DNA from: Halobacterium sp. DL1 | GTDB taxonomy: Archaea > Halobacteriota > Halobacteria > Halobacteriales > Halobacteriaceae | Assembly: GCA_000230955.3 (NCBI GenBank) | Contig: CP007060.1 | Location: 1,364,001 to 1,428,000, forward strand | Direction: 5' to 3' | DNA: 64,000 bases | Shown: positions 54,385 through 59,557 of the stretch, in pieces | How positions within the stretch are numbered: position 1 is the first letter of the stretch | Layout: the number at the start of each line of letters is the position of its first letter | The notes under the pieces: model-generated | The model's database searches: none | Seen by the model: only the letters and a program-made list of their open reading frames with translations | Told to the model about the DNA's origin: nothing | Position numbers and translations under genes: made by a program

Positions 54385-55302
54385 TCAGCCGAGGCGGGCT
54401 GCGAGGCGGTCCATCGCGTCGTCCGCGGCGGCGACGTCGTCGGTGAGGCTGAGGAATCCGTGGGCCATCGACGGGTAGTGGTGGTGCTCGACCGGTGTCC
54501 CGCCGGCGTCGAGGGCGGAGGCGTACGCCTCTCCCTCGTCCCGGAGCGGGTCGTGTCCGGCGGTGACGACTGTCGCTGGCGGCAGGTCGCCGTGGTCGGG
54601 GGCGCGCAGGACGCTCGCGTACGGGTTCGCGGCGTCGACGGGACTCCGGCAGTACTGGGCCCAGAACCACTCGACGTCAGCGCGGGTGAGCAGCGGGCCA
54701 TCTCCGTGCTCTCGGTAGGACTTCCGGCTCGTGTTCCGGTCAGTCATCGGGTAGAGCAGCGCCTGGTGGGCGAGGTCGGGTCCGTCGAACGCCCGTGCGC
54801 GAAGCGCGACGGCGGCCGCGAGGTTGCCGCCCGCGCTCGTCCCCGCGACGGCGACGCTGTCCGGGTCACCACCGAACGCGGCCGCGTTGTCGACGGTCCA
54901 CTCCAGTGCGGCGTAAGCGTCGTCGAGGCCCGCTGGGAACGGGTGTTCGGGCGCGAGGCGGTAGTCGACGCTGACGACGACGCAGTCCGCGCGGGCGGCG
55001 AGTTCCCGGCAGACGCCGCCGATGGAGTCCAGCGTCCCGAGTGTCCACCCGCCGCCGTGGTAGAAGACGACGACGGGTGCTGGTCGCTCTGGGTCGTCGT
55101 GGTAGACGCGGACGGGCACCTCGCCCGCGGGGCCGTCGAACGCGAGGTCACGGGCGAACGCGACCTCTCGCGGGTTTTTGGCGGTGAACACCTCGTCCTC
55201 CACGCGGCGCGCGGCCGGGACGGAGAGTTCGTGCCACTCCGGGACGCCGGCAACGCGAACCCGCTCGACGACCGCCGCCAGTTCCGGGTCGAGTTCGCTC
55301 AC
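54385..55302 (-). CDS. Alpha/beta hydrolase of the hormone-sensitive-lipase group
   Basis: A 305-residue esterase-type hydrolase. The oxyanion-hole motif HGGG is at 82-85, the nucleophile elbow GTSAGG has Ser156, Asp251 (AGHDPLRDE) is the acid, and His281 (MAHGF) completes the triad. These place it in the HSL (bacterial esterase) family. It is divergent from kynureninase with only 69 bp between them, so a role as an arylformamidase (N-formylkynurenine to kynurenine) is a fair guess, because animal arylformamidase is a related HGG-type hydrolase. The start is GTG at 55302, set by the family N-terminus. Confidence 0.8.
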   Translation of the reverse strand: MSELDPELAAVVERVRVAGVPEWHELSVPAARRVEDEVFTAKNPREVAFARDLAFDGPAGEVPVRVYHDDPERPAPVVVFYHGGGWTLGTLDSIGGVCRELAARADCVVVSVDYRLAPEHPFPAGLDDAYAALEWTVDNAAAFGGDPDSVAVAGTSAGGNLAAAVALRARAFDGPDLAHQALLYPMTDRNTSRKSYREHGDGPLLTRADVEWFWAQYCRSPVDAANPYASVLRAPDHGDLPPATVVTAGHDPLRDEGEAYASALDAGGTPVEHHHYPSMAHGFLSLTDDVAAADDAMDRLAARLG

Positions 55303-55329
55303 GGCTGTCCATCTCACCCCGCAACCGAA

Positions 55330-55344
55330 AACGTTCGGAACGTT
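55330..55344. promoter_or_regulatory. Inverted repeat between hydrolase and kynureninase genes
   Basis: AACGTTC-G-GAACGTT is a perfect 7+1+7 inverted repeat. Its centre (55337) is exactly 35 bp from each of the two start codons and overlaps the expected BoxA positions on both strands, so one bound dimer could control both genes. Confidence 0.55.
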
Positions 55345-55371
55345 CTCGTCGCTGGCGTCACACGGTGGGGT

Positions 55372-56643
55372 ATGGACGAGTTCGACGCGTCGCGGTCCGC
55401 GGCCCGGATGCGCGACGCCGAGTCCTCGCTGACGGGGCTCCGCGAGCGGTTCTCGACGCCCGAGGGGACGGTGTACATGGACGGTAACAGCCTCGGGGTC
55501 CACGGCGAGGACGCCGCGGTGGCCCTCGAGCGCGCCGTCGACCAGTGGCGGGAACTCGGTATCGAGGCGTGGACGGAGGCCGACCCGCCGTGGTTCGACT
55601 ACGGCGAGCGACTCGGCGACCGACTCGCGGACGTCGTCGGCGCCAAACCCTCGGAGTGCGTCGCGGCGAACTCCACGACGGTGAACATCCACGCGCTCGT
55701 CGGAACGTTCCTCGACGCCGCCGACGGCACGCGCGTCGTGGTCAACGAACTCGACTTCCCGACCGATCACTATGCCATCCGCGCACAGCTGGAGGCGCGT
55801 GGCCTCGACCCAGTGGAGAACCTCGTGGCCGTCGAGAGCGACGACGGGCGGACAATCGAGACGGACGCTATCGAGGCGGCTGTCGACGACGACACCGCTA
55901 TCGTGTTCATGCCCTCCGTGCTCTACCGGAGCGGTCAGCTGTTCGACCTCGAAGCCGTCACCGACGTCGCCCACGAGCACGACGCGTTCGCGGGGTTCGA
56001 CCTCGCTCACTCCGTCGGCGTCGTCCCCCACGACCTCCACTTCGACGGCGTGGACTTCGCGGTGTGGTGTAGCTACAAGTATCTCAACGCGGGACCGGGC
56101 GCCATCGCGGGTCTCTACGTTCACGAGGACCACTTCGACCTCGACCCTGCGCTCCCCGGCTGGTGGGGTCACGAGTCGGCGACGCAGTTCGACCTGCGCC
56201 CGGAGTTCACGCCCGCCCCGGACGCGAGCGCGTGGCAGATAGGCACGGTGCCGGTGTTCTCGGCCGCGCCGCTGTTCGGTACGCTCGACGTCGTGGAGGC
56301 GGCGGGCATCGACGAACTCCGCGCGCACTCGGTGTCGCTCACTCGATACCTCATCAGCCTCGTCGACGAGCACCTCCCGGAATGTACGGTCGGTAGTCCC
56401 CGCGAGGCCGACCGACGCGGCGGCCACGTCGCGGTCGAACACCCCGAAGCCGGGGCGCTCAGTCGCGCGCTCCGGGACCGCGGCGTGGTCGTCGATTACC
56501 GGCCGCCGAACGTCGTCCGGGTCGCGCCGTCGCCGTACTTCGTCGGCTACGAGGACGTGTGGCAGGCAGTCGACGAACTCCGCGTGGTGCTCGAAGAGGA
56601 CGCACACGCCGACTACGCCGCCGAGGCGGACTCCGTCACCTGA
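55372..56643 (+). CDS. kynU: Kynureninase
   Basis: A 423-residue PLP enzyme that cleaves kynurenine to anthranilate and alanine (or 3-hydroxykynurenine to 3-hydroxyanthranilate). The N-terminus has the family motif TVYMDGNSLG (about 33-42). The PLP-contact FDLAHS (209-214) and PLP-lysine Lys236 in WCSYKYLNAGPG are present, followed by the family GWWGHE motif. The start at 55372 follows the mirrored promoter geometry. Anthranilate can feed tryptophan synthesis or be degraded. A long frame opening at 54358 is antisense to the hydrolase and is rejected. Confidence 0.94.
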   Translation: MDEFDASRSAARMRDAESSLTGLRERFSTPEGTVYMDGNSLGVHGEDAAVALERAVDQWRELGIEAWTEADPPWFDYGERLGDRLADVVGAKPSECVAANSTTVNIHALVGTFLDAADGTRVVVNELDFPTDHYAIRAQLEARGLDPVENLVAVESDDGRTIETDAIEAAVDDDTAIVFMPSVLYRSGQLFDLEAVTDVAHEHDAFAGFDLAHSVGVVPHDLHFDGVDFAVWCSYKYLNAGPGAIAGLYVHEDHFDLDPALPGWWGHESATQFDLRPEFTPAPDASAWQIGTVPVFSAAPLFGTLDVVEAAGIDELRAHSVSLTRYLISLVDEHLPECTVGSPREADRRGGHVAVEHPEAGALSRALRDRGVVVDYRPPNVVRVAPSPYFVGYEDVWQAVDELRVVLEEDAHADYAAEADSVT

Positions 56644-56661: not shown

Positions 56662-58962
56662 CTACTCGCTCGTCGTGAACTCGAAGCGCGCGCCGCCATC
56701 CTCCCCGTCGGTCACCGACATCGTCCAGCCGTGGGCCTCGGCGATGCTCTTCACGATGGCGAGGCCGAACCCGGTGCCGTCCTCGCTGTGTGTCTCCCCG
56801 GACTTCAGGACGCTGTCGCGGTGGTCCAGCGGGATGCCGGGGCCGTCGTCCGAGGCGAAGAAGCCGTCCTCGGTCGTGCCGACTCTCACCGTGACACTCG
56901 GGCCAGCGTGCTCCACGGAGTTCCCGAAGAGGTTCTCCAGTAGCGACCCGAACCGCGAGGGGTCCGCGAGGAGCGTCGCGTCGCCGGTTACCTCCAGGGC
57001 TGCACCGTCGGTCTCCACGTTCCGCCACGCCTGCTGGGCGGCCGTCGACAGCGACACGTCGACCGTCTCGTCGAGGCTGCGCCCCGTCCTGGCGAGGGTG
57101 AGCACGCTCTCGATGATGTCGTGCATCCGTTCGAGCGCGGTGTCCGCCCGCTCGAAGTGCTCGTCGTCCCCGGTCTGTTCGGCGAGTTCGACGTAGCCCC
57201 GCGCGACGTTCAGCGGGTTCCGGAGGTCGTGGCTGACGATGCTGGCGAACTCCTCGAGGCGGTCGTTCTGGCGCTCCAGTTCTCGCTCGCGCTCCTTGCG
57301 GTCGGTGATGTCGGTGTACATCGCGTAGCCGTGGACGTTCGGCTTGTCCAGGCGGAACGGCACCACGTCGAGCAGGAAGTCCCGCGGGCCGTCCACGGCG
57401 ATGCGGCGAACCTCGACGTTCACGCTCTCCCCCTCCTTGAGCTTCTGGTTGTACACCTCGGCCTCGGTGATGGCGTCGGGTGGAACGATGTACTCGTCTA
57501 TCCGTTCGTTTGCGAGTTCGGACTCGCCGTAGCCGAACACGCGCTCGAAGGCGGGATTGATCGACTGGATGACGGGCTCCCCGTCCTCGACGAAGAAGCT
57601 CCCGGTCGGGCTCGGAATGTTCTCGAACAGCGCGGCGAGGCGGTTGCGCTCGCGGCGCAGTTCCGCCTCGCGTCGGTGGAGCATCTGTACGCGGTCAGCC
57701 CGGTCGAGCGCCGCCTCGCCGTTCGCAGCCAGCACGCGCACGAGGTCGCAGTCGGTCCGGCTGAGCGTCCCCCGCTCGGTGGCGCCGACGAGTAGCACGC
57801 CGTGCTCCCCGAGTGGGTGGATGATCTCCTCCTCGATGAGCGTCTGCGGGTTGTGGACGTCCTGGTGGTCCGGGACGTAGTCGAACCGCTCGGACTCCCC
57901 GTTCTCGTACACCCGCCACGCGAGGCTCTCGCCGGCCTCGAGCACCGGCGGTTCGTCACCGCCGACGGGTCCGGAGACGGCCGCCGGCAGGAGCGCGTCG
58001 CCGTCCTCCGAGACGAAGAACACGCCGACGTACGGCAGCCCGAGCAGGTCTTCCGCCACGTCGACGATGACCGACGCTATCTCGCCGGAGGTGTCCACGG
58101 CGAGCATCCGTCGCATGGCGTCGTGGAGGCCCGTGAGCGTCCGTTCGCGGTGGTGTTGCTCGGTCACGTCACTGACCACTGCGAAGGCGTCGGCGCTCGT
58201 TCCCTCGTCAAGCGGTTTGACAGTGACCTCCAGAACGCGGTCGTCCGCTGGGTCTGCGAGCGTCGTCTCGAGAGTCACGTCGCCCCCTGTGGGGACGAGT
58301 GAGCCGCCGTCCGCCTCGACGAGTTCTGCGAGTGACTGATCGCGGAGTTCCGACTCGGTCGCCTCGAAGATGCGTTCGGCGGCACCGTTCGCCTGCTCGA
58401 TGGTCGCGGGCGCGTTGACGCCGGTGTCGTAGAGCACGAGCGCGTCGTCCGCCTGCTCGAACAGCGTCCGGAAGCGCTCCTCGCTCTCGCGGACGTCCTG
58501 CCGCGAACGGATTCGCTGGACCGCCTGGAACGTGTGGGAGGCGAGCAGTTCGGCGAGTTTGAGGGTCTCCTCGTCCAGGCTACCGGGTTCGTCCATGCCC
58601 GCCTGGAAGATGCCGACGTCCCCGATGGGGACGGTCACGACCGACCGGGGAGCCCCTTCTGGTAGTTCGTCGACGCGGGGGTCGTCCTCGACGTCGGGCA
58701 CCACCTCCGACTCGCCCGTCTGGTAGACCTCCCCGGCGATGCCCTCGCCGACGTCGATTCCGGTCACGCTCGGTCGCCGCCCGCTCCACGCACGCACCGA
58801 CAGGACGCCGTCGCTCTCCGTCTCCACGACCGCCGTCGAGAAGTCGAAGATGGCCGCCGCGGCGTCCGCCATCGCGTCGTACACCGTCTCGACGCGCTCC
58901 GCCCTGGCAACCTCGGTGGCGTACGCGAGCAGTTCGCTGCGCTGGTCGCTGTTGTCACTCAT
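56662..58962 (-). CDS. Histidine kinase with GAF and PAS domains
   Basis: A 766-residue soluble kinase. The order is GAF (about 15-150), PAS (about 160-285), GAF (about 300-445), PAS (about 465-565), HisKA with phospho-acceptor His578 (SIVSHDLRNPLN), and HATPase with the N box (about 675-685), the G1 box DDGPGI and the G2 box GTGFGLAI. There is no membrane span, so it senses cytoplasmic or diffusible cues such as redox, light or ligand binding by GAF. It overlaps the HalX regulator by eight bases and probably phosphorylates it. Confidence 0.9.
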   Translation of the reverse strand: MSDNSDQRSELLAYATEVARAERVETVYDAMADAAAAIFDFSTAVVETESDGVLSVRAWSGRRPSVTGIDVGEGIAGEVYQTGESEVVPDVEDDPRVDELPEGAPRSVVTVPIGDVGIFQAGMDEPGSLDEETLKLAELLASHTFQAVQRIRSRQDVRESEERFRTLFEQADDALVLYDTGVNAPATIEQANGAAERIFEATESELRDQSLAELVEADGGSLVPTGGDVTLETTLADPADDRVLEVTVKPLDEGTSADAFAVVSDVTEQHHRERTLTGLHDAMRRMLAVDTSGEIASVIVDVAEDLLGLPYVGVFFVSEDGDALLPAAVSGPVGGDEPPVLEAGESLAWRVYENGESERFDYVPDHQDVHNPQTLIEEEIIHPLGEHGVLLVGATERGTLSRTDCDLVRVLAANGEAALDRADRVQMLHRREAELRRERNRLAALFENIPSPTGSFFVEDGEPVIQSINPAFERVFGYGESELANERIDEYIVPPDAITEAEVYNQKLKEGESVNVEVRRIAVDGPRDFLLDVVPFRLDKPNVHGYAMYTDITDRKERERELERQNDRLEEFASIVSHDLRNPLNVARGYVELAEQTGDDEHFERADTALERMHDIIESVLTLARTGRSLDETVDVSLSTAAQQAWRNVETDGAALEVTGDATLLADPSRFGSLLENLFGNSVEHAGPSVTVRVGTTEDGFFASDDGPGIPLDHRDSVLKSGETHSEDGTGFGLAIVKSIAEAHGWTMSVTDGEDGGARFEFTTSE

Positions 58963-59557
58963 CGTCGGACTGGTCGGAGAGGCGCCTGAACAGCACCTCG
59001 TAGTCCTCGTTGTCGAAGTCCGCGACAACCTCGTCGAGTTCGCCACGGAGCGCTTCGAGCCTGGACCGTAGCTCAGCGAACTCGTCGGACTCCGTGACGG
59101 TGGGGTCACCGGAGTCCACCAGCAGCGCGTGCTTGCGCGCCGTCGAGAAGTAGCGCTGGACCGTGCCGTCGTACGTCGAGCGTCTGAGGAGGCGCTCGAC
59201 AGTCGCGAGGAGGGTGTCGCGGTCGACGGGTTTGCGGAGGTAGTCGTCGAACCCGAGGTCGATGATGTCGAGTTCGGGTTCGACGGCGGTGACCATCGCG
59301 ACCCGGCACTCGAGGTCGCGCTCCCGGATGGTCTCGAGGACGTCGTCGCCCGAGAGGTCTGGCATCTGCCGGTCGAGCAACACGGCGTCGACGCGCTCGT
59401 CGAGGGAATCGACTGCCTCCTCGCCGTTGTACGCAGTTCTGACTGTGTAGCTGTCGCGCAGCCAGATGGCGTAGAGGTCGGCGAGCCCCTCCTCGTCGTC
59501 GACGACGAGAATGGTGGCCGCCTCGTCGTCCGTGTTCCCGTTGTCGACGTCGCTCAT
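58955..59557 (-). CDS. Response regulator with HalX domain
   Basis: A 200-residue regulator. The receiver (about 14-125) has the acidic pair in VVDDEEG, phospho-acceptor Asp62 (LLDRQMPDLSG) and the DYLRKPVD lysine. The C-terminal HalX domain (about 130-195) is a haloarchaeal output module of unknown target, with a helical coiled-coil-like structure and no HTH. The start at 59557 is set by family length, and a T-rich BoxA-like element lies about 27-31 bp upstream. It is first in an operon with the kinase. The gene is divergent from a glycosyltransferase. Confidence 0.92.
   Translation of the reverse strand: MSDVDNGNTDDEAATILVVDDEEGLADLYAIWLRDSYTVRTAYNGEEAVDSLDERVDAVLLDRQMPDLSGDDVLETIRERDLECRVAMVTAVEPELDIIDLGFDDYLRKPVDRDTLLATVERLLRRSTYDGTVQRYFSTARKHALLVDSGDPTVTESDEFAELRSRLEALRGELDEVVADFDNEDYEVLFRRLSDQSDDE

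Follow-up and report, generated by a model that had tools for sequence, protein, structure and literature searches.

A perfect inverted repeat between a hydrolase gene and kynU in Halobacterium sp. DL1 is probably the junction of two back-to-back leaderless promoters in a putative kynurenine gene module

Introduction

In Halobacterium sp. DL1, a gene for an HSL-type hydrolase and the kynureninase gene kynU diverge from a short intergenic region that is centred on a perfect inverted repeat. Is this repeat an operator shared by the two genes, as the initial annotation proposed, and does the hydrolase act in the same pathway as kynureninase? In bacteria, the kynA-kynB-kynU cluster encodes TDO, a cyclase-type formamidase and kynureninase, and the eukaryotic kynurenine formamidases AFMID and BNA7 are alpha/beta hydrolases. 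For haloarchaea, a passage of one paper briefly mentions the kynureninase of Halobacterium salinarum as a gene for degrading aromatic amino acids (PMC11665356). A literature search of incomplete coverage, and therefore weak as evidence, returned no description of a haloarchaeal IDO or of an arrangement of HSL hydrolase, kynU and IDO.

Results

The inverted repeat is mildly notable in its gap and ordinary elsewhere

The locus lies in a 64-kb window, by which we mean the whole stretch of DNA that was analysed. Every coordinate that had been assigned to the gap was verified: it spans 69 bp, and the centre of the perfect 7+1+7 repeat (55337) stands 35 bp from the hydrolase GTG (55302, minus strand) and 35 bp from the kynU ATG (55372, plus strand). 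The features are as follows.

54385..55302, minus strand: HSL-type alpha/beta hydrolase, candidate N-formylkynurenine hydrolase (305 aa, GTG start)
55303..55371, no strand: divergent intergenic region, 69 bp between the hydrolase and kynU starts
55330..55344, no strand: perfect 7+1+7 dyad AACGTTC-G-GAACGTT (15 bp, centre 55337), probably formed by two promoter cores
55372..56643, plus strand: kynU, kynureninase (423 aa)

The dyad stands out slightly within its gap but not across the window. A perfect inverted repeat with 7-bp arms and a spacer of 0-1 arose in 0.75% of dinucleotide-preserving shuffles of the 69-bp gap, and in 3.9% of them when spacers up to 10 were allowed; the window as a whole holds 30 such repeats with a spacer of 0-1, compared with 19-28 in shuffles. 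The exact dyad occurs once in the window and once in the 3.16-Mb genome, where the sole site with one mismatch is ACCGTTCAGAACGTT (G000:C1:617259-617273; L002). Across the class its frequency is about the chance rate (7 of 292 haloarchaeal genomes, one copy each, with a total of ~3.8 expected by a first-order estimate). On this single exact copy and this chance-level frequency, we rejected the dyad as a genome-wide regulon site. Since AACGTT is self-complementary, the dyad can equally be read as two direct copies of (G)AACGTTC spaced 9 bp apart.

Each arm coincides with a predicted core promoter

The initial annotation had also noted that the dyad overlaps both BoxA positions, which is correct and proved key to the nature of the feature. 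In Haloferax volcanii, dRNA-Seq defined a TTWT TATA box and a CGAAA BRE, with 72% leaderless transcripts (PMC4983044). The base composition upstream of 293 genes from 59 haloarchaeal loci agrees with that placement: A/T content peaks at -29..-26, and positions -35..-32 are A-rich. We built a promoter matrix from ~250 haloarchaeal promoters, leaving out kynU, the hydrolase and the DL1 locus; the matrix is approximate, as the gene calls and starts of its training set were mechanically called. Its consensus, CGGAACGTTTATC, itself contains AACGTT, and its median scores are 5.0 bits for real promoters and 0.07 for shuffled ones. The best matches upstream of the two genes are as follows.

55326..55338, minus strand: predicted hydrolase core promoter CCGAACGTTTTCG, -36..-24, with the TATA quartet TTTT at -29..-26 (55331-55328)
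55336..55348, plus strand: predicted kynU core promoter CGGAACGTTCTCG, -36..-24, with the TATA quartet TTCT at -29..-26 (55343-55346)

Each core, at -36, is the top match in the upstream 75 bp of its gene (CCGAACGTTTTCG, 6.82 bits, 64th percentile of real promoters; CGGAACGTTCTCG, 6.49 bits, 60th percentile). Both genes thus carry a BRE/TATA-like match centred near -30, as is characteristic of a haloarchaeal leaderless core promoter, and we infer leaderless transcription starts for both here. The cores resemble the Haloferax promoters (PMC4983044) in where they stand before the start codon, in having an A-rich BRE and a T-rich TATA quartet, and in the lack of an evident leader, and differ from them in that two cores on opposite strands overlap and match exactly over 7 bp. 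The equal distances from centre to start are what is expected of two back-to-back leaderless promoters; because both cores happen to place the near-consensus, self-complementary (G)AACGTT equally far from their start codons, the pair reads as a perfect inverted repeat. The overlap of the predicted BRE/TATA cores (-36 to -24) amounts to 3 bp (55336-55338), and TBP/TFB complexes on the two promoters would be unlikely to fit side by side, so that the genes would compete for initiation. Such competition between two initiation complexes on overlapping cores is the mechanism that we favour, as one suggested by the promoter geometry.

The arms follow their own genes in related genomes

Among the 40 gaps read, the dyad lies beside kynU solely in DL1 (G000) and a sister species (G018). 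The distance from arm to arm is 9 bp in these two, 21 bp in G017, which has a 12-bp insertion, and 3.5 kb in G008. On the hydrolase side, GAACGTTC is found at -33 to -35 in 6 of the 7 Halobacterium orthologs (G000, G018, G017, G012, G009, G008), and G008 retains it although its kynU is 3.5 kb distant. The core on the kynU side is AACGTTCTC in G000, G018 and G017; at the matching position the other relatives have TATA-like cores that differ in sequence, namely TACGCTTATC (G010, G012), TACGCTTAAT (G009), AACGTACAT (G007, G008, G014, G016) and CGTTTATC (G013). Each arm therefore stays at a set distance from the start codon of its own gene, whereas the spacing between the arms varies, which argues for two promoters rather than one operator.

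Some features of the repeat are less readily accounted for. Between G018 and DL1, all 15 bp of the dyad are kept while the other 54 bp of the gap are 76% identical (chance ~0.016); conservation is also high on the kynU side of the gap (24/27). AACGTT is present at the core of 7/56 kynU and 8/40 hydrolase promoters (together 15/96 rows) and of 3/254 promoters of other genes, the rows being related by descent. Promoter context by itself was rejected as a reason to expect the dyad: a simulation that mixed orthologous promoters gave a 65-fold enrichment, and with unrelated genes only this became 1.7-fold (a 7-mer shared at -34..-28 by 0.016% of unrelated promoter pairs, versus 0.0097% of shuffled ones). 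The exact match of the two arms remains a coincidence or an unexplained residue.

The neighbourhood holds a histidine kinase gene and a response regulator gene

The window neighbours of the two genes encode an ABC transporter, a DUF502 protein, a chemotaxis transducer, a histidine kinase, a HalX response regulator, a glycosyltransferase and a HalOD1 protein. Two of them lie downstream of kynU.

56662-58962, minus strand: GAF/PAS histidine kinase
58955-59557, minus strand: HalX response regulator

The kinase family (~1.7-2.6 kb from kynU) and the regulator family (3.3-4.0 kb) recur in about nine loci. By eye, a possible membrane-protein ORF of ~37 residues lies between the divergent hydrolase and kynU in two further genomes (L147 and L152; G023 and G019). 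In two f8 genomes in which the hydrolase and kynU are codirectional, a gene judged by eye to be creatininase-like lies ~1.6-2 kb from the pair (L154, 4616-5374; L155, 10587-11348), and its promoter also contains GAACGTTTAATA.

A shared regulatory site is improbable

Could a regulator nevertheless use this sequence? A dimeric repressor bound to 55330-55344 would cover both TATA regions and silence both genes at once, and such a genuine operator would account for the perfect symmetry, the central position, the overlap with both cores, the full conservation in G018 and the excess of AACGTT in kynU and hydrolase promoters. Dyad symmetry overlapping the promoters, as expected of a shared operator, is indeed present. 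However, the dyad is not kept wherever the gene pair is kept: across the 40 gaps it is missing from G017 (with its 12-bp insertion), G012, G009 and G010 despite their divergent pairs, and from the other haloarchaeal kynU-hydrolase gaps examined. It is confined to two sister species, whereas the divergent pair is old and widespread, and the arms, at varying spacing, each match a generic BRE/TATA core in the right place. A second exact copy was not found in the whole genome, the class-wide frequency is at chance, and in 48-63 kb of the window no HTH regulator gene was recognised near the pair, only the histidine kinase, the HalX response regulator and the HalOD1 protein. We therefore regard an operator as improbable. 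The initial annotation had stated that it would be contradicted by kynU orthologs whose loci lack the repeat or the hydrolase; such loci exist, and its proposal of one repressor site for both genes fails.

A separate 8-bp regulator site, GAACGTTC, superposed on each TATA box would instead give the genes a common regulator and no common site. GAACGTTC is found in 6/40 hydrolase promoters, all from Halobacterium, and in 0/254 other promoters, and CGAAACGTTC-type kynU cores occur in four loci of family f3 as well. But the haloarchaeal core consensus already contains AACGTT, which is missing from 49/56 kynU promoters, and the rows are phylogenetically dependent; we consider superposed sites of this kind improbable as well. 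Two promoters meeting back to back remain our preferred account of the repeat.

The hydrolase and kynU form a conserved pair

Assignment of kynU is straightforward (TIGR01814, 350 bits against an equivalog cut-off of 246.4, residues 13-407, full-length; KYNU_C PF22580, 98.2 bits). The hydrolase matches PF07859 (260.9 bits) and carries HGGGW and GTSAGG motifs in its translation, and its closest named model, that of the LipP1 hormone-sensitive lipases (NF058653), matches over its whole length at 407.2 bits, above the equivalog cut-off of 350; in sequence the protein is a generic HSL esterase. Models of the cyclase-type arylformamidase KynB (TIGR03035, PF04199) gave no match in it. Its best 60 solved relatives in the PDB are esterases, lipases and other alpha/beta hydrolases, none named formamidase.

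Among 292 haloarchaeal genomes, kynU was found in 136 (E up to 1e-80) and the hydrolase in 83 (E up to 1e-95). We tabulated 94 kynU places; in 51 the hydrolase gene is no more than 8 kb away, diverging from kynU in 47 and separated from it by less than 600 bp in 40. A few further hydrolases near kynU fall just below threshold. Of the hydrolase-bearing genomes, 80/83 have kynU, compared with 136/292 overall (Fisher p 1.8e-30, a value that ignores shared descent). The association spans seven families, codirectional in the two f8 genomes and mostly divergent otherwise. The hydrolase and kynU belong together as a conserved module, apparently in tryptophan breakdown.

Some haloarchaea link the pair to an IDO

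TDO (PF03301) was found in none of the 292 haloarchaeal genomes, and we rejected it as the enzyme for the missing first step. IDO (PF01231) was detected in 11 of the 292, and in 8 of these 11 it shares one cluster with the hydrolase and kynU (L121, L125, L139, L141, L142, L144, L180, L181), so that in eight genomes the hydrolase has the genomic context of a kynurenine formamidase, namely linkage to both kynureninase and tryptophan dioxygenase. Of the other three, one has IDO and kynU with no hydrolase found within the 10 kb read, one has IDO and the hydrolase ~6 kb apart without kynU, and one has its IDO away from its kynU. The haloarchaeal IDO proteins match human IDO1 and the IDO2 entries in the PDB, and one histidine is kept in the alignment, at what we take to be the position of the proximal heme ligand. 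Hydrolases of the IDO clusters belong to the same clade as the DL1 hydrolase, which is split from paralogs at 100/100 support.

The gene link between hydrolase, IDO and kynU makes N-formylkynurenine the most likely substrate. The hydrolase would take the formyl group off N-formylkynurenine, and KynU would then cleave kynurenine to anthranilate and alanine. Gene neighbourhood, co-occurrence and the clusters of IDO, hydrolase and kynU all point to N-formylkynurenine hydrolysis, which is our best guess for the hydrolase. These same lines of evidence favour the suggestion of the initial annotation that the hydrolase works in the kynurenine pathway, possibly as the formamidase; the dyad, which had been offered in its favour, gives it no support.

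The hydrolase might instead be a generic esterase or act on some other ester or amide, its place by kynU reflecting inherited gene order and no common pathway. The LipP1 equivalog match, the carboxylesterases and lipases among its top PDB matches and the lack of an N-formylkynurenine-forming enzyme in the DL1 genome all fit such a reading, which we regard as possible, though rather unlikely. It sits poorly with linkage across seven families, the strong co-occurrence with kynU and the clustering with IDO in eight genomes, and with an orientation of the pair that, though usually divergent, is codirectional in two f8 genomes. An ordinary LipP1-type esterase would have no need of conserved linkage to kynU and IDO.

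The DL1 genome has a reduced set

Neither TDO nor IDO was found in the DL1 genome. Three proteins other than the hydrolase, all of PF04199, match TIGR03035 at 33.5-82.9 bits, far under its cut-off of 223, and a KynB-type cyclase was rejected as the formamidase of this genome. A 3-hydroxyanthranilate branch was likewise rejected, no 3-HAO match being above cut-off. TrpD is present. Hypothetically, the DL1 module could process kynurenine or N-formylkynurenine that the cell imports, or what non-enzymatic oxidation makes of tryptophan, with the resulting anthranilate going back into tryptophan synthesis.

Discussion

We consider it probable, on comparative sequence evidence, that the dyad marks where two leaderless core promoters meet back to back, that kynU and the hydrolase gene make up a kynurenine module conserved in haloarchaea, and that the hydrolase most likely deformylates N-formylkynurenine. 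In itself the dyad is nothing unusual; the gene module is the more important finding. The repeat illustrates a trap: with a self-complementary AACGTT in the haloarchaeal BRE/TATA core, a pair of leaderless promoters placed back to back can look like an operator.

The haloarchaeal module resembles the bacterial kynA-kynB-kynU cluster in that kynureninase is accompanied by a putative enzyme for formylkynurenine hydrolysis and, in part of the genomes, by a tryptophan dioxygenase. It differs in that the dioxygenase is of the IDO type (PF01231) and not TDO, the hydrolase is of the HSL type and not a cyclase-type KynB, the genes are divergent, and Halobacterium has no dioxygenase. With AFMID and BNA7 the hydrolase shares the alpha/beta hydrolase class, an HGGxW-type oxyanion motif and a serine triad; unlike them, it is grouped by PDB comparison with microbial HSL esterases, with no formamidase in the best 60 matches.

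For Halobacterium we tentatively suggest, as a rather speculative possibility, a kynurenine salvage without a dioxygenase. N-formylkynurenine, imported or formed non-enzymatically (for example from tryptophan by photo-oxidation in sunlit brine), would pass through the HSL hydrolase and KynU to anthranilate, and through TrpD into tryptophan synthesis. If this were true, IDO-bearing relatives would make the same intermediate, N-formylkynurenine, enzymatically, and the relative amounts of hydrolase and KynU would be set by the two divergent promoters, which would exclude each other.

Together, our results suggest a haloarchaeal kynurenine route made up of an IDO or no dioxygenase, an HSL-type hydrolase replacing KynB, and KynU. 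A formamidase role for the hydrolase would give a function to a widely conserved family that is annotated as esterases.
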